Of a stretch of 64,000 nucleotides of DNA, positions 9,908-64,000 are shown piece after piece. The DNA comes from Sphingomonas sp. SUN019 (GTDB taxonomy: Bacteria > Pseudomonadota > Alphaproteobacteria > Sphingomonadales > Sphingomonadaceae): assembly GCF_024758705.1 (NCBI RefSeq), contig NZ_CP096971.1:930001-994000 (forward strand), in the 5' to 3' direction. A program made the translations under genes and the position numbers. Positions within the stretch are counted from its first letter, which is position 1; each line of letters opens with the position of its first letter. The notes below the pieces were generated by a model that was given only the letters and a program-made list of their open reading frames with translations, was not told the DNA's origin and searched no databases.

Positions 9908-12361
9908 CTATCCGTCGATCTTCGAAAAGTCGGCGACATTGTGCACTGCAGCACGAACCCGTGCAAGCAGCGCGAGCCGAGCGGCCCGCATTTCGGGGTC
10001 GGGATCGTTGACGGTCACGGTCTCAAAGAACGCATCGATCGGCGCACGCAGCGTGGCGAGCGCAGTCATCGCAGCGGCGAAGTCCTCGTCCGCGACCGCG
10101 TGGGCGGCGGCGGGTTCGGCGGCGTCGAGCGCGGTGATTAGGTCCGCTTCCGCTTTTTCGGGCGTGTAGGAAAGTTGTTTCGGCGCGTCGATCGCCTCAC
10201 CACCGTCGTCATTCCCGCGAATGCGGGAATCCATAGTCGCTGATCCATCGGCTACATCCGGGCCGTCGTGATTATGGACCCCCACCTTCGCGGGGGTGAC
10301 GGTGGATGTTATGAGGGTGGGATACCCCTCCTTCTTCAAAATATTCGCCGCCCGCTTGTATCCCGCGAGCAAATTCGCTCCGTCCGCGGTCCCGACGAAC
10401 GCCTGCAGCGCGCGGACGCGGGCGAGCAGGCGGACGAGATCGTCTTCGCCACCGAGTGCAAACACCGCGTCGATCAGGTCGTGGCGGACGCCTGCCTCGC
10501 GTTGCTGGACTTTCAGGCGATCGGCGAAGAAGCTGATCATGCTCCGCAAAGCACGTTCTGTCGGCTCAACGAAAAATTTGCGCTGTCCCTCTTCGCCGGC
10601 AGCCTGATCAAGCAAGTTGGCCGAAAGAGACTGAATGTCCTCTGCGTCCACTTTCACGCCAGCAGCGCGGAGCACGGCGACAACATTCTCAAGTTTGTCC
10701 GCCTGTATATTCCCCAGCGAGCGACCGGCAAAGATCGCAAGGCTGAACTGTGCGGCGTTTCCGATTTCGAGCCTGATATTGAGATCAACAATAATCCGAA
10801 TGATGGCTAGAGCAGCTCGCCTGAGCGCGTATGGGTCGCGCGAACCAGACGGCATTTCATTGATGAAAAAGAAAGTCGCCAACGTATCCAGCTTGTCCGC
10901 CAGCGACACCGCGACCGTTACGGGCGCGGTGGGGACGTCGTCGCCCTGCCCGACCGGTTTGTAATGGTCGCGGATCGCGGCGGCGACGCGGGGGTCTTCG
11001 TTTTGCGCGGTGGCGTAATAGCCGCCCATCAGGCCCTGGAGTTCGGGGAATTCGCCGACCATGCCGGTGACGAGGTCGGCCTTGCACAGGCGCGCGGCGC
11101 GTTCGGCGAGGGTGGCGAGTTCTACTCGATCCTCCCCTGCAAGGGGAGGTGGCGCGGAGCGCCGGAGGGGTGTCGCGCTATCTAGAGGGTGATACCCCTC
11201 CGTCTCGCTACGCGAGCCACCTCCCCTTGCAGGGGAGGATGAGATTATCCCCTCTTCCACCAGCCATCGTGCCAGTTTCGCGACGCGGTCGACTTTGTCC
11301 GCGACCGTTCCAAGTTTTTCGTGGAAGACGATCTTCTTCAGCTTCTCCGCCTGGTCTTCCAGCGGCACCTTCAGGTCGGTGTCGTAGAAGAAGCGCGCGT
11401 CGCTCAATCGCGCGGCGAGCACCTTGCGGTTGCCCTCGACGATCGTCGCGCCGCCGTCGGTGGCGTCGATGTTGGCGGTGCAGATGAAGGCGTTGGCCAG
11501 TCGCCCTTCGGCATCGTTACACACGAAATACTTCTGGTTCACGCGCGCCGTCAGCTGGATCACCTCGGGCGGGACGGTCAGATATTCCTGGTCGAAGCGG
11601 CCGAGCAGCGGCACGGGCCATTCGGTCAGCCCGGCGTTCTCGATCAGCAGCCCTTCGTCGCGGACGAGCGTGAGGCCCGCCTTCGCCGCGGCCATCTGCG
11701 CGCCGATCGCGATGATCGACTGGCGTTCGTCCTGGTCGACGATGACGTGGCAGGCGCGGAGTTTCTCGGCGTAATCGGCGGCGTTGCCGATCGTGATGAC
11801 GCCGGGGTGGTGGAAGCGGTGGCCGACCGTCGCCGCGCCGCTGATTATCCCGGCGATTGCGCACGGCACCACGTCGTCGCCGAACAGCGCGACGATGCCC
11901 TGCAACGGGCGGACCCATTTCAGGCTCTCGGTGGTGGTCGAGGCCGCGCCCCAGCGCATCGATTTGGGCCAGGGAAAGGCGCGGACGATGGCGGGGATCG
12001 CCTCGGCCAGCACGTCGGCGGTCGCGCTACCGGGCTTTTCGGTGATCGCGTAGAGGACGCCGTCACGTTCGGTCAGTTGGTCGCGGGTCAGGCCGGTTTT
12101 CCGGAGGAACCCTTCCAGCGCTTGTGCGGGAGCGGCGGTCTTTGGGCCTTTCATTTCCTCGCTTACGGCCTGCGTCGCGGCGGGGAGGCCGCGGGCAATG
12201 AGTGCGAGGCGGCGGGGGGTGGCGTAGGTCACGGTCCCGGTTGCGCTCAAGCCGGATTTGGCGAGTTCTGCGGCGAAGAGTTTCGCAAGGTCTTCACGCG
12301 CGCGCGCCTGCATCCGCGCGGGGATCTCTTCAGAGCGGAGTTCTAGGAGGAAATCGGTCAT
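9908..12361 (-). CDS. glyS: Glycyl-tRNA synthetase beta subunit, with two repeat-derived insertions
   Basis: Beta subunit of the heterotetrameric bacterial glycyl-tRNA synthetase, needed for tRNA binding. It opens MTDFLLELRSEEIPARM, the typical beta-subunit start. The 817 residues make it longer than usual because two stretches look translated from intergenic repeats. Residues about 374-411 ([16 protein letters not shown] region) come from the palindrome at 11129-11240. Residues about 687-718 (TMDSRIRGNDDGG region) come from the repeat at 10208-10302. Both keep the frame. The ATG at 12361 is preferred over TTG 12367, because GGAGG from the adjacent repeat lies 8 nt upstream of it. Conserved segments around the insertions (VGEFPELQGLMGGYYA, YKRAANILKKEG) are intact, so the gene is probably functional. 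Confidence 0.95.
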   Translation of the reverse strand: MTDFLLELRSEEIPARMQARAREDLAKLFAAELAKSGLSATGTVTYATPRRLALIARGLPAATQAVSEEMKGPKTAAPAQALEGFLRKTGLTRDQLTERDGVLYAITEKPGSATADVLAEAIPAIVRAFPWPKSMRWGAASTTTESLKWVRPLQGIVALFGDDVVPCAIAGIISGAATVGHRFHHPGVITIGNAADYAEKLRACHVIVDQDERQSIIAIGAQMAAAKAGLTLVRDEGLLIENAGLTEWPVPLLGRFDQEYLTVPPEVIQLTARVNQKYFVCNDAEGRLANAFICTANIDATDGGATIVEGNRKVLAARLSDARFFYDTDLKVPLEDQAEKLKKIVFHEKLGTVADKVDRVAKLARWLVEEGIISSSPARGGGSRSETEGYHPLDSATPLRRSAPPPLAGEDRVELATLAERAARLCKADLVTGMVGEFPELQGLMGGYYATAQNEDPRVAAAIRDHYKPVGQGDDVPTAPVTVAVSLADKLDTLATFFFINEMPSGSRDPYALRRAALAIIRIIVDLNIRLEIGNAAQFSLAIFAGRSLGNIQADKLENVVAVLRAAGVKVDAEDIQSLSANLLDQAAGEEGQRKFFVEPTERALRSMISFFADRLKVQQREAGVRHDLIDAVFALGGEDDLVRLLARVRALQAFVGTADGANLLAGYKRAANILKKEGYPTLITSTVTPAKVGVHNHDGPDVADGSATMDSRIRGNDDGGEAIDAPKQLSYTPEKAEADLITALDAAEPAAAHAVADEDFAAAMTALATLRAPIDAFFETVTVNDPDPEMRAARLALLARVRAAVHNVADFSKIDG
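10208..10302. repeat. Family B palindromic repeat inside glyS
   Basis: Two inverted-repeat units of the common ATTCCCGCGAANGCGGGAAT type. The left one (from 10211) is followed by CCATAGTCGC; the diverged right one (10274-10300) has CCCCCACCTTCGCGGGGG. The same family occurs intergenically at 16655-16725. Here it lies wholly within the glyS reading frame and is translated. Confidence 0.85.
11129..11240. repeat. Family A palindromic repeat (copy A1) inside glyS
   Basis: An inverted repeat about 112 bp long. The left arm starts ATCCTCCCCTGCAAGGGGAG and the right arm is its complement ending CTTGCAGGGGAGGAT. Inner GGAGGGGT/ACCCCTCC arms and small inner hairpins lie between. It has the same architecture as copies A2-A6, but the outer hairpin carries TGCA instead of GG/CG. 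It is read in frame by glyS. Confidence 0.88.
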
Positions 12362-12368
12362 TTTCAAA

Positions 12369-12488
12369 TCCTCCCCGGGACGGGGAGGTGGCAGCCCGCA
12401 GGGCTGACGGAGGGGCAGCCAAGCAGGTGTGGCGCTTGTGGCTGCCCCTCCACCGCTTCGCGGTCCCCCTCCCCGTTCCGGGGAGGAT
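12369..12488. repeat. Family A palindromic repeat (copy A2), glyQ-glyS gap
   Basis: It fills nearly the whole gap between glyQ and glyS. The outer arms are TCCTCCCCGGGACGGGGAGG and the near-complement CCCTCCCCGTTCCGGGGAGG. Next in are GAGGGGCAGCC/GGCTGCCCCTC, and the inner hairpins are GCAGCCCGCAGGGCTG on the left and ACCGCTTCGCGGT on the right. Read on the minus strand, its left end gives GGAGGATTTGAAA directly before the glyS ATG. Confidence 0.9.
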
Positions 12489-12500
12489 TTAGAAGGACCA

Positions 12501-14376: not shown

Positions 14377-14382
14377 CTTAAA

Positions 14383-14501
14383 TCCTCCCCGGCACGGGGA
14401 GGGGGACCGCGAAGCGGTGGAGGGGCAGCCTCAGGCGACGGACCTGCTTGGCTGCCCCTCCGTCACGCCTTCGGCGCGCCACCTCCCCGTGCCGGGGAGG
14501 A
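14383..14501. repeat. Family A palindromic repeat (copy A3)
   Basis: Outer arms are TCCTCCCCGGCACGGGGAGG on the left and the matching CCTCCCCGTGCCGGGGAGGA on the right. Inner arms are GGAGGGGCAGCC and GGCTGCCCCTCC. The left inner hairpin is ACCGCGAAGCGGT and the right one is built on GCGCGCC/GGCG-type pairing. It follows the stop codon of the TraB-like gene closely and may also act as a transcription barrier. It lies 111 bp upstream of rplY. Confidence 0.9.
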
Positions 14502-16612: not shown

Positions 16613-16654
16613 TTGATAGGGCGATCTGGATCTTTGCTCTGACAAGAAGCCTCC

Positions 16655-16725
16655 GTCATTCCCGCGAAGGCGGGAATCCATAACCCTGTGCAGCGATTAT
16701 GGATTCCCGCCCTCGCGGGAATGAC
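16655..16725. repeat. Family B palindromic repeat (intergenic copy)
   Basis: Two units face each other: TCATTCCCGCGAAGGCGGGA at the left and a near-complement TTCCCGCCCTCGCGGGAATG at the right. ATCCATAA/TTATGGAT inner arms lie between. It sits in the 237-bp gap between the oxygenase-like gene and the Q/R-rich lipoprotein, and no other feature is seen in that gap. The translated copy in glyS belongs to the same family. Confidence 0.88.
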
Positions 16726-16849
16726 GATCGAGCCTTAACTTCGTCAAATAGACTGAAACCTGCCCTGCGATGAACCGACGCGGCACGGCCGGTTCAGGAA
16801 TGCTGCCCTATCACGCGGATCGAGCAAGCATCGAAGGAGTTACGGTGCC

Positions 16850-43570: not shown

Positions 43571-43581
43571 GCCTTCCGCAA

Positions 43582-43710
43582 TTCCCCCCCGGAACGAGGA
43601 GGGGGACCACGAAGTGGTGGAGGGGCAGCCCCAAGCGCTGGTCCTGCTTGGCTGCCCCTCCACCATTCGCCGAAGAGGCGAACGGTCCCCCTCCCCGTTC
43701 CGGGGAGGAT
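43582..43710. repeat. Family A palindromic repeat (copy A4), ivd-mccB gap
   Basis: The left end TTCCCCCCCGGAACGAGGAG is slightly degraded; the right end CCCTCCCCGTTCCGGGGAGG is intact. Inner arms are GGAGGGGCAGCC and GGCTGCCCCTCC. The left inner hairpin is ACCACGAAGTGGT and the right one ACCATTCGCCGAAGAGGCGA plus ACGGT. Its right end GGGGAGGATTTTTAG leads straight into the mccB ATG. Confidence 0.9.
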
Positions 43711-43716
43711 TTTTAG

Positions 43717-45318
43717 ATGACCGCCCCCACCCTAACCACCGCCCTGTCCCCCGACAGCGATACCTTCCGCGCCCACGCCGCGCACAACCGCGCATTGGCG
43801 GAGCAACTCCGCGCCGACGTCGCCACCGCCGCGCTCGGCGGGAACGAGAAATCGCGCGAGCGCCACACGTCGCGCGGTAAACTCCTCCCGCGCGAACGCG
43901 TCGAACGCCTGCTCGACCCCGGCTCTCCATTTCTCGAAATCGGCCAGCTCGCCGCGGGCGGCGTGTATGGCGAGGACATTCCCGGCGCGGGCATGATCGC
44001 GGGCATCGGCCGCGTTTCGGGCCGCCAGTGCATGATCGTGTGCAACGACGCCACCGTGAAGGGCGGCACCTATTACCCGCTGACCGTCAAGAAGCACCTC
44101 CGCGCGCAGGAGATCGCGCTGGAGAACCGCCTGCCCTGCATCTACCTGGTCGACAGCGGCGGCGCGAACCTGCCGCATCAGGCCGAGGTATTCCCCGACC
44201 GCGAGCATTTCGGCCGTATCTTCTTCAACCAGGCGCAGATGAGTTCGCAGCAAATCCCTCAGATCGCCTGCGTCATGGGATCATGCACCGCAGGCGGCGC
44301 GTACGTTCCCGCGATGAGCGACGAAACCGTTATCGTCCGCAATCAGGGCACGATCTTCCTCGCCGGGCCGCCGCTGGTGAAGGCCGCGACGGGCGAGATC
44401 ATCACCGCCGAGGAACTGGGCGGCGCGGACACCCACGCGCGCAAATCGGGCGTCGTCGATCACGTCGCCGAAAACGACGAACACGCGCTGACGATCGTCC
44501 GCGACATCGTCTCGACGCTCGCGCCGCAGCTCCAGACCCCGGTCAATCTGCGCGACCCGCGTCCGCCCAAATTCGACGCCGAAGACCTGTACGGCATCGT
44601 ACCCCAAGACGTGCGCGCGCCTTATGACGTACACGAAATTATCGCACGGCTGGTCGACGGCAGCGAGTTCGCCGAGTTCAAATCGCTTTACGGCAGCAGC
44701 CTCGTCTGCGGCTTCGCGCACATCTGGGGCATCCCCGTTGCGATACTCGCCAATAACGGGGTACTGTTCAGCGAATCCGCGCAGAAGGGCGCGCATTTCA
44801 TCGAACTCGCCTGCCAGCGCCGCATCCCGCTGTTGTTCCTCCAGAACATCTCCGGCTTCATGGTCGGCGGGAAATATGAGGCGGAGGGCATCGCCAAGCA
44901 CGGCGCAAAACTCGTCACGGCCGTCGCCACCGCGACCGTTCCCAAGATCACCGTCCTGATCGGCGGCAGCTTCGGCGCAGGCAATTACGGCATGTGCGGC
45001 CGCGCCTATTCCCCGCGCTTCCTGTTCACCTGGCCGAATGCCCGCATCAGCGTGATGGGCGGCGAACAGGCCGCGTCCGTGCTGGCGACGGTCCACCGCG
45101 ACGCCGAGAACTGGACCTCCGAGCAGGCCGAAGCCTTCAAAACCCCGATCCGCCAGAAATACGAGGATGAGGGCAACCCGTATTACGCGACGGCCCGCCT
45201 GTGGGACGACGGCGTCATCGACCCGGTGCAGACCCGCGATGTGTTAGGGTTGGCCTTTGCCGCGACGCTAAACGCCCCCATCCCGGAGACGCCAAGGTTC
45301 GGCGTGTTCCGGATGTGA
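43717..45318 (+). CDS. mccB: Methylcrotonoyl-CoA carboxylase beta subunit
   Basis: Carboxyltransferase subunit that moves CO2 from biotin to 3-methylcrotonyl-CoA. The 533 residues are full length. [40 protein letters not shown] and [20 protein letters not shown] are typical. [20 protein letters not shown] and the C-terminal [10 protein letters not shown] complete the carboxyltransferase fold. Its Shine-Dalgarno GGAGG is the end of repeat A4. The stop overlaps a possible GTG start of the following DUF559 gene (GTGA). The partner subunit gene mccA lies 1.1 kb downstream. Confidence 0.95.
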
Positions 45319-45806
45319 GGGATAACGAAGCAAATTCCTCCCCGGAACGGGGAGGGGGACCGCCCGCCTCTTCGGCGGGTGGTGGAGGGGGCCCACCCCG
45401 CCCCTTCACAGCGCCCATAAAGACGGTCAAACGCGCCCGCAGACTTCGTCGCGAGATGTCACTGCCGGAAGTCTTGCTGTGGCAACAACTCCGCCAGCGC
45501 CCAGGCGATTTCAAATTCCGGCGCCAGCATCCCAATGGCAAGCTCGCGCTGGATTTTGCCTGTATGGCCGCGCGGCTGGTCATCGAGGTCGATGGCGAGG
45601 CGCACAACCGCGGTGATCAACCGCAATTCGACGTTGCGCGTGATGCGAGCCTGGCGGCCGCTGGCTATCTGACGCTTCGTGTTCCCGCCACGGCGATACT
45701 CCGCAATCTCGACGCGGTCATCACCGGCATCGTCACCGCTTGCCGAGAGCGGGGCCCCTCCACCGTCCTGCGGACGGTCCCCCTCCCCGTTCCGGGGAGG
45801 AATTGA
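45315..45806 (+). CDS. DUF559 endonuclease-like protein flanked by family A repeat arms
   Basis: Protein with a DUF559 domain, related to Vsr/PD-(D/E)XK-type nucleases. The core is [20 protein letters not shown], then [20 protein letters not shown] and [20 protein letters not shown]. The Asp/Glu of DF-ACMA and VIEVDGEAH are the likely metal-site residues. The GTG at 45315 overlaps the mccB stop and includes the whole domain, but the first about 28 residues are then translated from the left repeat arm. The last about 18 ([15 protein letters not shown]) come from the right arm. ATG 45456 would cut the domain start. DNA target and function are unknown. Confidence 0.72.
45336..45392. repeat. Left arm of split family A repeat (copy A5-L)
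   Basis: TCCTCCCCGGAACGGGGAGG followed by GGGACCG, then an inner hairpin CCCGCC/GGCGGG around TCTTC and GGTGGAGGGGG. It is the same as the left arm of an ordinary A copy, but the matching right arm is 360 bp away, beyond the DUF559 gene. Confidence 0.87.
45751..45801. repeat. Right arm of split family A repeat (copy A5-R)
   Basis: GGGGCCCCTCCACCGTCCTG then CGGACGGTCC and CCCTCCCCGTTCCGGGGAGG. The inner hairpin ACCGTCCTGCGGACGGT is well paired. It is inverted relative to A5-L, and its 27-bp outer end is an exact complement of the left one. It codes the C-terminus of the DUF559 protein. Confidence 0.87.
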
Positions 45807-45816
45807 AGGACACACC

Positions 45817-46293
45817 ATGATCCTCTCCCTGCTCCTTGCCGCCGCGCTTCAGTCCTCAGACAAGCTCCCGCCCGCCAACCCGCTCCCGCCCCCCGGCGCG
45901 CAGGAGGCGGCAGTGCTCGCTCCCGTCACCGCGGTCCTCGCCGCCATCCCCACGCACGATCGCGCGGCGGTCGAGGCGCAACTCCTCCCCGGCGGCAGCG
46001 CCACGGTCGCGGTCGAAAAGCCCGACGGCACGCGGCAAGTCCGCCGCATGACGTGGGCCGACTGGCTCGCCAATTTCAAGCCCGGCGCCGAACGGGTGCG
46101 CGAGACGCAGGGGATGCCCGCGATCGAGATCGACGGCGACGTCGCAATGGTGTGGGCGTCGTTCACCTTCACGATCGACGGCAAACCGCATCATTGCGGC
46201 ACCAACCACTGGGATCTGGTCCGTGACGCAGGAAGCTGGAAGATCGCGAACATCACCTGGTCTCAACGCACGACGGGATGCGCGACGCAGTGA
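45817..46293 (+). CDS. SnoaL/NTF2-like exported protein
   Basis: 158-residue protein opening MILSLLLAAALQSSDKLPPA, a short signal peptide. The mature part has AVLAAIPTHDRAAVEAQLLP early, MPAIEIDGDVAMVWASFTF in the middle and NHWDLVRDAGSWKIANITWS near the end. This is the usual pattern of SnoaL/DUF4440-like NTF2 folds, which range from enzymes to binding proteins. It lies between the DUF559 gene and mccA; a link to leucine degradation is not evident. GAAGGA lies upstream of ATG 45817. Confidence 0.75.
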   Translation: MILSLLLAAALQSSDKLPPANPLPPPGAQEAAVLAPVTAVLAAIPTHDRAAVEAQLLPGGSATVAVEKPDGTRQVRRMTWADWLANFKPGAERVRETQGMPAIEIDGDVAMVWASFTFTIDGKPHHCGTNHWDLVRDAGSWKIANITWSQRTTGCATQ

Positions 46294-46359
46294 ACGCTGT
46301 CCTACAACGCTCAGTTTCGGTTATGCTTTCCCGATGATCGTGCCGCATCCCTCCATCCC

Positions 46360-46411
46360 AATGTTGAGACACGGCGGAAAAATGCGCCAGCGTCTCAACA
46401 TTCTCAACATT
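46360..46411. promoter_or_regulatory. Inverted repeat upstream of mccA, candidate operator
   Basis: AATGTTGAGAC at 46360-46370 is matched exactly in inverse by GTCTCAACATT at 46392-46402, with a third CTCAACATT directly after (46403-46411). The cluster ends 26 bp before the mccA ATG, in a 144-bp gap holding nothing else. It looks like a regulator or leader site. The factor is unknown. Confidence 0.5.
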
Positions 46412-46437
46412 CGCCCAAAATCGGACGGCGCCGCAGC

Positions 46438-48393
46438 ATGATCAAATCGCTCCTGATCGCCAACCGCGGCGAGATCGCCTGCCGCATCATCCGAACGGCG
46501 CGCACGATGGGTATCCGCACCGTCGCGGTCTATTCCGACGCCGACGCGAAGGCGCTGCACGTCCGCCAGGCCGACGAAGCGGTCCACATCGGCGCGTCCC
46601 CTGCGCGCGAAAGCTATCTGGTCGGCGACAAGATCATCGCCGCGGCGAAGCATACCGGCGCGGAGGCGATCCATCCCGGTTACGGCTTCCTCAGCGAGAA
46701 CGCCGATTTCGCGCAGAGCGTGATCGACGCCGGGCTGATCTGGGTCGGCCCACGCCCCGACAGCATCCGCGCAATGGGGCTGAAGGACGCCGCAAAGGAG
46801 CGCATGATCGCCGCGGGCGTCCCCGTGACGCCGGGGTATCTCGGCGCGGACCAATCCCCCGACCGGCTCGCCGCGGAGGCGGAGAAGGTCGGCTATCCCG
46901 TCCTCATCAAGGCGGTCGCGGGCGGCGGCGGCAAGGGGATGCGCCGCGTCGATGTGCCCGCCGATTTCGCCGATGCGTTGCTATCATGCCAGCGCGAGGC
47001 CGAATCCTCGTTCGGCAACACGCAGGTGCTGATCGAGAAATACATCCTCTCGCCCCGTCATATCGAGGTGCAGGTCTTCGGCGACACCCACGGCAACGTC
47101 GTCCATCTGTTCGAACGCGACTGCTCGCTTCAGCGCCGCCACCAGAAAGTGATCGAGGAAGCCCCCGCCCCCGGCATGGACCCCGCCACCCGCGAGGCGG
47201 TCTGCGCCGCCGCGGTAAAGGCCGCGCAGGCGGTCGACTACGTCGGCGCGGGCACGATCGAATTCATCGCCGACACGTCTGATAGAGAAGACGGGGGCTC
47301 AGGCCTGCGCGCCGACCGCATCTGGTTCATGGAAATGAACACCCGGCTGCAGGTCGAACATCCGGTGACCGAGGAGATTACCGGCGTCGATCTGGTCGAA
47401 TGGCAATTGCGCGTCGCGAGTGGTGAGCCGTTGCCGAAACGGCAGGACGAACTCAGCATCAACGGCTGGGCCATCGAGGCAAGGCTCTATGCGGAAAACC
47501 CGGCAACGGGGTTTCTCCCAAGTGTCGGGCCGCTGCGCCACTTCAAGCTCCCATCGTCAAGCCGACGTTGGCCGGTCCGAACTGAGACAGGGTATAGCCG
47601 TGGAGATGAGGTCACACCATTCTATGACCCGATGCTGGCCAAGATCATCGCCACAGGGCCGGATCGCGACGAGGCGGTGACGGCTCTTGAGCACCATTGC
47701 GAAACAGTGACCTGTTGGCCAGTTCGGACCAATGCGCGATTCCTCGCATCGGCGCTTCGTCATCCTGCGTTCGTGGCGGGAGGCATAGACACAGGGTTCC
47801 TCGCTCGCGAAAGTGACATCCTCGTCGGCACCGAAGCGCCGAGCGAAGGTGCGTTGCAAGCGGTTGCCAGTCTGATCTTCGACGACGACCGCGGCGGTAG
47901 TCCCTCCGATATTTACGATGTTGGCTCCAGGCGCGACAGTGGACCGTGGTCAGCACAAGCCGGGACACGGCTTAGCGCGCCAAGCGCGCCTACTCGACTT
48001 CACTTGAGCACCGGTTCGTCGGTGAACGAAATTGTGTTCGACCCGGACTTTTCTGGTCCCAATCCGTGGGCCGAACGCGTCGACGAAGGCTGGCTTGTAG
48101 ACGACTTCGGCACGACATTCGTGCTTAACCCGGCGCGCGCCGGAGGTGACGCTATCGTCGGCGCGGCCGACGGAGCGATCCTGTCGCCTATGCCCGGTCG
48201 CCTGATCGCGGTGGAGGTCGCTGCGGGGGATGTGGTCGCCAAGGGGCAGAAACTCGTCACGCTGGAGGCGATGAAGATGGAGCACAGCCTGACCGCGCCG
48301 TTCGACGGCACGGTCGCCGAACTCAACGCCCACCCCGGCGGTCAGGTCAGCGAAGGCGCGTTGCTGGTGCGGATCGAGCGGGCGGAGGGGTGA
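46438..48393 (+). CDS. mccA: Methylcrotonoyl-CoA carboxylase alpha subunit (biotin carboxylase/BCCP)
   Basis: Biotin-containing subunit that carboxylates biotin with ATP and bicarbonate. The 651 residues hold an N-terminal biotin carboxylase (SLLIANRGEIACRIIRTART; ATP-grasp KAVAGGGGKGMRRV; FMEMNTRLQVEHPVTE), a middle BT domain (about 480-575) and a C-terminal biotinyl domain with the modified Lys in LEAMKMEHSL. From about 47540 to 48150 codon use becomes clearly less GC-biased than on either side, while the reading frame and expected domains are kept. It is separated from mccB by the DUF559 and SnoaL-like genes. Confidence 0.94.
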   Translation: MIKSLLIANRGEIACRIIRTARTMGIRTVAVYSDADAKALHVRQADEAVHIGASPARESYLVGDKIIAAAKHTGAEAIHPGYGFLSENADFAQSVIDAGLIWVGPRPDSIRAMGLKDAAKERMIAAGVPVTPGYLGADQSPDRLAAEAEKVGYPVLIKAVAGGGGKGMRRVDVPADFADALLSCQREAESSFGNTQVLIEKYILSPRHIEVQVFGDTHGNVVHLFERDCSLQRRHQKVIEEAPAPGMDPATREAVCAAAVKAAQAVDYVGAGTIEFIADTSDREDGGSGLRADRIWFMEMNTRLQVEHPVTEEITGVDLVEWQLRVASGEPLPKRQDELSINGWAIEARLYAENPATGFLPSVGPLRHFKLPSSSRRWPVRTETGYSRGDEVTPFYDPMLAKIIATGPDRDEAVTALEHHCETVTCWPVRTNARFLASALRHPAFVAGGIDTGFLARESDILVGTEAPSEGALQAVASLIFDDDRGGSPSDIYDVGSRRDSGPWSAQAGTRLSAPSAPTRLHLSTGSSVNEIVFDPDFSGPNPWAERVDEGWLVDDFGTTFVLNPARAGGDAIVGAADGAILSPMPGRLIAVEVAAGDVVAKGQKLVTLEAMKMEHSLTAPFDGTVAELNAHPGGQVSEGALLVRIERAEG

Positions 48394-48419: not shown

Positions 48420-48498
48420 CCGTCGTTGCGAGCGCAGCGAAGCAATCCAGTTTCTCGCGCGCTGCACTGGATTGCTTCACTGCGCTCGCAACGACGGG
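48420..48498. repeat. Family C palindromic repeat
   Basis: CCGTCGTTGCGAGCGCAGCG followed by AAGCAATCCAGT is matched inversely by ACTGGATTGCTTCACTGCGC followed by TCGCAACGACG, over a short central spacer. This is a typical dispersed repeat of alphaproteobacteria, unrelated to families A and B. A half unit of yet another type (TTCCCCGGCGAGAGCCGGGG, about 48524-48543) lies just to its right. Together they fill the mccA to 48555 gap. Confidence 0.88.
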
Positions 48499-63206: not shown

Positions 63207-63629
63207 ATGCGCATCACGCAAGGCACCTTCTCGTTCCTGCCCGACCTGACCGACGATCAGATCACCGCGCAGGTGCAATATTGCCTCGATCACGGCTGGG
63301 CCGTGAACATCGAATATACCGACGACCCGCACCCGCGGAACACCTATTGGGAGATGTGGGGCATCCCGATGTTCGACGTGCCCGATGCGGCGGGGGTGAT
63401 GATGGCGCTGAAGGACTGCCGCACCGCCCACGCCGGATCGAACTACATCCGCATGTCGGCGTTCGACAGCACCTATGGCTGGGAATCGTTGCGGCTGTCG
63501 TTCATCACCGATCGTCCGGCGGAAGAACCCGGTTTCGCGCTGGAGCGGCAGGAGACCAGGGGAAGGCAGATCGCCTACACCACGCGTTCGTATGCGGCGT
63601 TGAAGCCCGAGGGCGAGCGGTATGCGTAA
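63207..63629 (+). CDS. cbbS: RuBisCO small subunit, red-type
   Basis: 140-residue small subunit that completes the L8S8 holoenzyme. It begins [20 protein letters not shown], has [20 protein letters not shown] in the body, and carries the long C-terminal beta-hairpin extension typical of red-type small subunits ([20 protein letters not shown]). ATG 63207 lies 11 bp after the cbbL stop with AAGGAGAG before it. A family A repeat separates it from cbbX. Confidence 0.97.
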
Positions 63630-63632
63630 AAT

Positions 63633-63754
63633 CCTCCCCGGCACGGAGAGGTGGCGCGCGCAGCGTGACGGAGGGGGCTCTCAGCGACGCGCATCGTTAG
63701 TGGATAGCCCCCTCCACCATGCTTCGCATGGTCCCCGTCCCCGTCCCGGGGAGG
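63633..63754. repeat. Family A palindromic repeat (copy A6), cbbS-cbbX gap
   Basis: Outer arms are TCCTCCCCGGCACGGAGAGG on the left (one base changed) and CCCCGTCCCGGGGAGGA on the right. Inner arms are GGAGGGGGCT and AGCCCCCTCC. The right inner hairpin is ACCATGCTTCGCATGGT. Its end GGGGAGGATTT lies 4-8 bases before the cbbX ATG. It fills the gap and may weaken or punctuate transcription into cbbX. Confidence 0.88.
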
Positions 63755-63758
63755 ATTT

Positions 63759-64000
63759 ATGAACGACGCTATCGACCTCCGCCGCGATTACGCCGAGAGC
63801 GGGCTGGACGAGGAACTGGCACAGCTCGACCGCGAGCTCGTCGGACTCGCGCCGGTCAAACGGCGGATCCGGGAGATCGCCGCGTTGCTGCTGGTCGATC
63901 GCGCGCGCCAGAAACTCGGCATATCGACCGAAGCCCCGACCTTACACATGAGCTTCACCGGCAACCCCGGCACCGGCAAGACCACCGTCGCGCTGCGGAT
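63759..64000 (+). CDS. cbbX: Red-type RuBisCO activase CbbX (truncated by window end)
   Basis: AAA+ ATPase that pulls inhibitory sugar phosphates out of red-type RuBisCO by threading the large-subunit tail. Only about 80 residues are visible, starting [20 protein letters not shown], then [20 protein letters not shown] and Walker A in [16 protein letters not shown]. These match the CbbX N-terminus well. The ATG is preceded by GGGGAGGA from the repeat. The rest lies beyond the window. Confidence 0.92.

Follow-up and report, generated by a model that had tools for sequence, protein, structure and literature searches.

A 64-kb stretch of the genome of Sphingomonas sp. SUN019 (the window; positions 930001-994000 of a 3.8-Mb single-contig genome) contains several compact, gene-less copies of an intergenic palindrome and one place at which a gene for a DUF559 (domain of unknown function 559) protein lies between the two arms of the same palindrome. 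This arrangement raises the question of what the gene and the palindrome are to one another. A reading of the window made from its letters (the sequence-only reading) had suggested that the palindrome carries a nuclease gene, and had speculated that DUF559 proteins act for this repeat in the way that REP-associated tyrosine transposases (RAYTs) act for repetitive extragenic palindromes (REPs). From the comparisons described below, we consider it probable that the DUF559 gene and its two arms together make up a single selfish element of ∼470 bp, that the nuclease is the element's own spreading enzyme, and that the compact palindromes are non-autonomous derivatives that arose by internal deletion.

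The inverted arms around the DUF559 gene are real, and they are spaced by the ∼360 bp that had been claimed. The outer arm ends (45333-45367 and 45770-45804) are 97% complementary across 35 nt, and each arm consists, in order, of an outer hairpin H1 (TCCTCCCC..GGGGAGG), the hairpin H2, and a GGAGGGG block that mirrors GGGGAGG. The DUF559 assignment also holds, as the protein matches PF04480 with an E value of 4e-26 (91.5 bits versus a Pfam cut-off of 20.6). The C-terminal residues LPLPVPGRN are translated from the right arm, as had been noted. An N-terminal Gly/Pro stretch is translated from the left arm provided that the start is GTG 45315 or GTG 45201; the third candidate start, ATG 45456, gives the 116-residue form found in the sequence collection, which is without the left-arm part. 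A search of positions 44800-46800 against Rfam found no match to an RNA family.

The sequence-only reading had proposed asking how often DUF559 genes in relatives are bounded by such arms. Each locus was scored by the best inverted match between its 350-bp flanks (threshold 40), with windows shifted within the same loci as the control. The DUF559 loci were the best-scoring matches plus hand-picked ones, a non-random sample of which 118 of 121 were scored (L023, L032, L109, L164, and L181 were left out of the arm survey at contig edges). All five DUF559 genes of the Sphingomonas sp. SUN019 genome lie between inverted arms, which are of three types. Arms were found at 59 of the 72 DUF559 loci sampled from the family (0/144 shifted windows) and at 26 of 46 in a phylum-wide sample (1/92 shifted windows), whereas genes for true Vsr proteins had arms at 0 of 28 loci (0/56 shifted windows). 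A separate contig set, whose loci may overlap the other sampled genomes and whose counts are kept apart, had armed DUF559 loci in 23 of 27 cases in Proteobacteria, 4 of 17 in Bacteroidota, and 2 of 2 in other groups (control, 0/167). DUF559 genes in relatives are thus mostly bounded by arms. Chance, considered as the origin of the arms, was ruled out by the shifted windows and the true-Vsr control.

DUF559 genes are present in 88 of the 99 family genomes sampled, at 0 to 10 genes per genome. Of 119 listed homologues (the one from the window excluded), 101 had a recognizable core motif. By a loose set of motifs of our own, applied without a control, 89 of these 101 end in a tail that resembles an arm (for example, GPPPRSGED); many of the homologues inspected begin with PPRNGEGD, which is the left arm in translation. 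The nearest DUF559 relatives of the window's gene among the named loci, seven in number, are all from Sphingomonas, and the search of phages gave one weak match only. DUF559 proteins may serve other roles outside arm-bearing elements. On a Picosynechococcus plasmid (L295), a DUF559 gene lies between PIN-domain and DUF1156 genes with weakly inverted flanks (score 29).

Arm type follows protein clade. Arms were sorted into types A, B, C, and D, and a protein tree was built from 93 of 128 elements, omitting 26 without arms and nine of an unclassed arm type; eight rows were reassigned on visual inspection, L186g and L114 to type A and L074, L077, L089, L016, L030, and L080 to type B. The tree requires 17 changes of arm type, compared with a mean of 45.5 when labels are shuffled (0/200 shuffles as low), and 24 of the 25 A-arm rows fall in one clade with a Shimodaira-Hasegawa-like approximate likelihood ratio support of 99. 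When labels were shuffled only within genomes (11 genomes with several types, 38 elements; the long-branch row L065 was dropped), the mean was 31.9 and the minimum 23, and none of 300 shuffles reached 17. This within-genome shuffling rules out that the arms are set by the host genome.

The abundance of the palindrome also follows the gene. In the Sphingomonas sp. SUN019 genome, the arm-tip pattern has 73 matches, compared with 0 for a reversed-pattern control; six tips match on both strands, so the matches represent 67 places. This tip list includes 21 opposed pairs lying 99-111 bp apart, tip to tip, which are the compact copies, and only one wide pair, 446 bp apart, which is the DUF559 locus of the window. 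Across the 99 family genomes, A tips are found in 31 of 35 genomes with an A-clade gene (membership set at an E value at or below 1e-17) and in 13 of 64 genomes without one (Fisher 2.6e-11). When the genes' own arms are subtracted, at least three tips are present in 23 of 35 versus 10 of 64 genomes (p 1.0e-6). In the test proposed earlier, of repeat number against DUF559 presence, genomes that have the clade hold its cognate compact palindromes more often than genomes that lack it.

Signs of copying come from one sampled genome, G045, in which three 447-bp arm-gene-arm units occupy three different places and are identical pairwise at 441, 420, and 418 of 447 positions (94-99%), both arms included. 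A fourth copy, 266 bp long, has lost its interior but retains the two arms together with the part of the gene that encodes the C-terminus, and is a non-autonomous copy in the making. Apart from the similarities discussed below, the flanks of these units are unmatched except for short pieces. At the G045 loci L093, L094, L272, and L273 an outer repeat of about AGCGGAC..GTCCGCT lies beyond the arms and may mark true ends.

Empty and occupied versions of the same site were compared at the 3′ end of mccB, the gene upstream of the DUF559 element in the window, as the sequence-only reading had proposed. For 18 of 30 fetched family loci, those with the next gene visible, the gap was empty in six (7-8 bp including the stop codon), held a single hairpin in one, a DUF559 gene in five, a small GIY-YIG gene with other arms in four, and other content in two. 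Among 30 genus loci, 10 were empty (5-8 bp), one had a single hairpin, seven had DUF559, three GIY-YIG, and nine other content; the window's own locus is counted in both sets. Gap lengths to the downstream SnoaL-like open reading frame are approximate (the probe was one base out of frame), with no effect on the placements of DUF559, GIY-YIG, mccB, and mccA. The DUF559 gene is co-oriented with mccB at the window's locus and in L195, L200, L213, L214, and L217, and opposed in L185, L186, L225, L230, and L235. The gap upstream of mccB measures 5-19 bp in seven relatives (as alignment ends); in L197 and L201 it is occupied by a DUF559 element, and in the window by a compact copy. The proposal that the palindrome carries a nuclease gene thus has good support, and the refuting outcomes named in the sequence-only reading did not come about: DUF559 genes in relatives mostly have arms, and the orthologous gap is empty in six of 18 family and 10 of 30 genus loci. 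An element also lies within the pnt operon on a Sphingomonas parapaucimobilis plasmid, and another between paaD and paaZ on a Deinococcus plasmid. The best other records of the pnt operon are only 68-75% identical, and no junction was obtained from that comparison.

The hairpins of the arms are kept as their letters vary. In one arm half, all four outer pairs of H2 are formed in 79% of 85 distinct inserts (22 stems) versus 14% when halves are swapped, and in the other half they are formed in 92% of 36 distinct inserts (18 stems) versus 17%. The stems of H2 thus vary by compensation, and the structure of the arms is under selection. In the first half-type the outermost H2 pair on the inward-running strand is G-T in 37 of 85 inserts and A-T in 28 (65/85 together), so this strand tolerates G-T. 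A link between this pair and a Vsr-like T:G preference of the enzyme would be a guess.

The protein itself is predicted to be a nuclease. An AlphaFold2 model (mean predicted local distance difference test score 80) has as its nearest solved fold a gonococcal endonuclease-like protein (3hrl, E 1.2e-6), followed by the EDxHD homing endonuclease I-Bth0305I (3r3p, E 2.2e-4, template modeling score 0.79 by target), the restriction enzyme PvuRts1I (9.5e-4), and, further down, Vsr (1vsr, E 0.03). Columns reading F-R-x-Q, D-F-x-C, and E-x-D-G are conserved in DUF559 homologues. The Pfam Vsr model does not match the protein at E 0.001, and a Pfam scan of the element found one sub-threshold restriction endonuclease family, no domain above the cut-off besides DUF559, and no transposase domain. 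The E. coli DUF559 protein YcjD was placed among the PD-(D/E)XK proteins by 2005, and its profile finds Vsr, according to PMC1189080. PMC12907096 reports that VsrA of Caulobacter crescentus, a DUF559 protein, is required for the SOS response when a cytosine methylase is absent, and gives in vivo evidence of DNA damage. The words "inverted repeat," "palindrom," and "repetitive" do not occur in the main text of that paper, and among the open-access papers listed in our searches no title or abstract opening was found that joins DUF559 and palindromes.

The DUF559 gene of Escherichia coli, ycjD, adjoins sapF, and its locus is covered to at least 80% at a place in 3364 of 5426 E. coli genomes. The type-B repeats beside it are, by comparison with the sequences in PMC4666352, the BoxC repeats later named PIT elements or TMECO triplex motifs; one is identical letter for letter to entry 22 of Table 1 in that paper, and a finer search of one E. 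coli record found 26 type-B places. PMC4666352 describes the BoxC/PIT elements of MG1655 as intergenic without exception and as lying at loci of lower stability than control loci, with no tie to mobile elements and an origin unclear as of 2015, and reports that E. coli copies form intrastrand triplexes in vitro; the words ycjD, nuclease, endonuclease, and DUF are absent from its main text. The three BoxC sites that we examined in the collection of 5426 genomes were all polymorphic. At alx-sstT the short allele (L381 versus L382) has lost 75 bp, which turns a two-hairpin BoxC into one hairpin, as single REPs derive from REPINs (paired, inverted REPs), and one BoxC-site allele carries an unrelated longer stretch instead. 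Genomes that have ycjD (n = 38) hold a median of 3 other BoxC places, and those that lack it (n = 22) a median of 1 (p 3e-6), in a spread sample of 60 of 5339 records in which megablast places are an undercount and phylogeny is ignored. DH5alpha has ycjD. The use of ycjD as a strain-level empty site was attempted and failed, as the four ycjD-less strains fetched carry another operon there.

Based on these results, we propose a route by which the element may spread. The nuclease would recognize the folded arms as single strands, on the lagging strand or at a stalled fork, and would nick both at the folded arms and at loosely specified intergenic sites. Host repair would then copy or join the hairpin-ended strand into the new site, with small replacements and no target duplication as the outcome. 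The nuclease could be supplied in trans, which would allow compact copies to keep spreading, and gene-less dimers and single hairpins would be derivatives of the gene-bearing element. The DUF559 nuclease would, on these associations, be the driver of spread.

Several observations weigh against this proposal. Both the movement and the activity of the enzyme are read from sequence, and we know of no strand-joining activity in a lone PD-(D/E)XK nuclease. The arm score fell below threshold at 13 of 72 family loci, 20 of 46 phylum loci, and 13 of 17 Bacteroidota loci. Flanks exchanged between loci, a control for composition and not a positional null, scored at least 40 in 37 of 216 comparisons within the family, 10 of 138 in the phylum sample, and 4 of 84 for Vsr; exchanged flanks pass because arm families are common to several loci. 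In G045, similarity in one pair of units continues for 39 and 30 bp past the arms, and a stretch of ∼200 bp in two right flanks is 70% alike; the element may therefore end further out in that genome. A tips occur without an A-clade gene in the 13 genomes counted above, one of them with 98 tips; these genomes may have lost the gene, may be incompletely assembled, or may draw on the enzyme of another clade. The E. coli gene has type-B repeats on its right side only and no left arm, and the ycjD-BoxC correlation takes no account of lineage. Where the repeat is missing at fepB-entC and hrpB-mrcB, the alleles differ by ∼6-10 bp at the join and can be read as gain or loss, and neither a clean junction nor a target duplication was found at the E. 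coli BoxC sites.

Small GIY-YIG genes were chosen as a negative control for the arm survey and proved positive with different arms, and true Vsr genes were used in their place. GIY-YIG genes lie between inverted arms at 23 of 30 family loci (0/60 shifted windows) and 13 of 24 loci of a class sample (0/48 shifted windows; L122-L151 and L384-L412, with L396, L399, L403, L405, and L411 left out at contig edges). Types among these arms are CGTC-tagged REP-like and TTCG..GAGC..CGAA. A pyrimidine hairpin is present at 82 of 85 armed DUF559 loci versus 1 of 23 armed GIY-YIG loci, and a looser motif set for the GIY-YIG side is found at 21 of 23 GIY-YIG versus 22 of 85 DUF559 loci. The CGTC-type tag with a hairpin occurs at 13 of 36 armed GIY-YIG loci; the corresponding figures are 18 of 1180 for random 60-mers and 6 of 59 for DUF559 loci of the family. 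CGTC-tagged REPs (CGTCATxxx..xxxATCCA), which part of the GIY-YIG arms resemble and which belong to that side and not to the DUF559 side, are apparently without a dedicated transposase (PMC3733652), and the GIY-YIG genes may be their missing partner. Within the window, CGTC-REP-like palindromes (CGTCATTCCCGCGAAnGCGGGAATCCATA) occur at 10206-10242 and 16654-16726, of which one is solitary and the other an inverted pair.

The existence of a second nuclease family inside other palindromes bears on the main alternative explanation, in which the palindromes came first and owe their spread to another agent. The nuclease would then be a homing passenger, invading them by cutting a compact copy that is repaired from a gene-bearing one. 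This would also suit the great excess of gene-less over gene-bearing arms, the homing endonuclease among the nearest folds, and the genomes with many A tips but no A-clade gene. We nevertheless think it unlikely, since arm type tracks protein clade even within one genome, the three G045 copies have both arms in common with wider flanks mostly unmatched, and the five paralogues of the Sphingomonas sp. SUN019 genome are diverged and not recently converted. A kinship with homing enzymes is supported by fold only: neither intron nor intein was seen, and the DUF559 genes, unlike I-Bth0305I, have palindromes at their flanks and occupy many unrelated sites.

A host function, in which DUF559 repairs DNA in a Vsr-like manner or processes hairpins and the arms serve it as regulatory or maintenance sites that do not move, is improbable in our view. 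The SOS phenotype of VsrA in PMC12907096 and the wide distribution of ycjD speak for it; the variation from 0 to 10 genes per genome at scattered sites, and the 94-99% identical copies with their deletion derivative in G045, speak against it. The likeness to Vsr is a remote fold match, and the armless true Vsr genes and the failure of the Vsr Pfam model set the DUF559 proteins apart.

We give very little weight to mobilization in trans by an unrelated transposase, such as a tyrosine transposase, with DUF559 as cargo. It would supply the strand joining that, as far as we are aware, a lone PD-(D/E)XK nuclease lacks; the co-variation found is with DUF559 (the test was run on DUF559 only), no other domain above the cut-off lies within the element, and the GTAG tag of RAYT-associated REPs is absent from the window arms. 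REPs themselves are credited to RAYTs in PMC2817692. The arms are equally hard to credit as terminators or insulators gained by any small intergenic gene, with the DUF559 link a by-product of location in gaps: the compact copies inspected are indeed intergenic, but shifted windows and true Vsr genes are without arms, the pyrimidine hairpin separates DUF559 from GIY-YIG arms, and PIT/BoxC elements have no promoter or terminator activity according to PMC4666352.

The selfish element that we favor resembles several known systems. PMC2817692 lists inverted flanking REPs, co-evolution, and abundance tied to the cognate gene as the marks of a RAYT. Like a RAYT/REPIN system (REPtron), the DUF559 gene lies inside inverted palindromes that also occur gene-less and scattered, repeat type co-evolves with the protein, and abundance of the cognate repeat tracks gene presence (exceptions, 13/64). 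Unlike it, the enzyme is a PD-(D/E)XK nuclease and not an HUH (IS200/IS605-like) tyrosine transposase, there is no GTAG tag (by eye, the window arms begin with TCCTCC and others with CCCTC and similar), and the arms are two-hairpin, triplex-like blocks. With an enzyme other than a tyrosine transposase and no such tag, the DUF559 element stands outside the RAYT family. The speculation that DUF559 acts as RAYTs do is therefore borne out in its circumstantial part, the inverted flanks, co-evolution, and copy-number correlation, and catalysis of movement is a conjecture from these. B-type arms have the same three blocks as BoxC/PIT/TMECO (CCCTCTCCC / GGGAGAGGG / GGGTGAGGG; pyrimidine, complementary purine, and a mirrored third purine), and both are intergenic, at times in inverted pairs, and strain-polymorphic; the A-type arms of the window differ in that another hairpin separates blocks 2 and 3. 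Classical insertion sequences and miniature inverted-repeat elements have terminal inverted repeats, a DDE or other transposase, and a target-site duplication; here inverted ends and a deletion derivative were seen, and neither a transposase domain nor a target duplication was found.

A wider claim, to which we lean a little less than halfway, is that several of the orphan intergenic palindromes that are commonest in bacteria belong to nuclease-only, transposase-free selfish elements that would spread by nicking of folded arms and host repair: BoxC/PIT/triplex and the Sphingomonas palindromes with DUF559/YcjD, and CGTC REPs and TTCG..GAGC..CGAA with small GIY-YIG proteins. If true, this would give a cause for the BoxC/triplex motifs, whose origin is unclear (PMC4666352), and for CGTC REPs, which apparently lack a dedicated transposase (PMC3733652), and it would assign a role to DUF559, whose function is unknown in Pfam. 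The question is testable in E. coli K-12, in which ycjD and BoxC copies are present and BoxC sites vary between strains.

Features of the DUF559 locus and compact copies of its palindrome (positions in the window)
Feature	Position	Strand	Remarks
Left arm	45333-45390	+	Outer hairpin H1 45336-45355 (TCCTCCCC-GGAA-CGGGGAGG), H2 45359-45383, closing GGAGGGG
DUF559 (PF04480) nuclease domain	45423-45743	+	Coding sequence stop TGA 45804-45806
Right arm	45755-45804	-	Inverted copy; H2′ 45762-45778, H1′ 45782-45801; encodes the protein's C-terminus
Carboxyl-transferase gene (PF01039; mccB of the sequence-only reading)	43717-45318	+	Upstream neighbor; its 3′ gap is the insertion site
SnoaL-like open reading frame (PF13577, E 1.4e-8)	45817-46293	+	ATG 45817; downstream neighbor
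Compact gene-less copy	12369-12491		Same palindrome family
Compact copy	14379-14501
Compact copy	43580-43713		In the acyl-CoA dehydrogenase-mccB gap
Compact copy	63629-63767		One half of each kind (TGGC..GACGGAGGGG + GGTCCCC/GGTGGAGGGG-type)

The DUF559 gene had been placed between mccB and mccA. Its position agrees with this, as mccA (a biotin carboxylase gene by Pfam) lies at 46438, but the SnoaL-like open reading frame lies there also. A palindrome of another type, CCGTCGTTGCGAGCGCAGCGAAGCAATCCAGT, is present as an inverted pair at 48420-48497 of the window. In another genome, G016, most of the compact copies fetched (L278-L284) consist of one GGGACC..GGTGGAGGGG half and a second half of TGGC or TGGG type. 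Most of them also have the same H1 loop, ATCG[AT]CTTGCGAT, which is specific to that genome.

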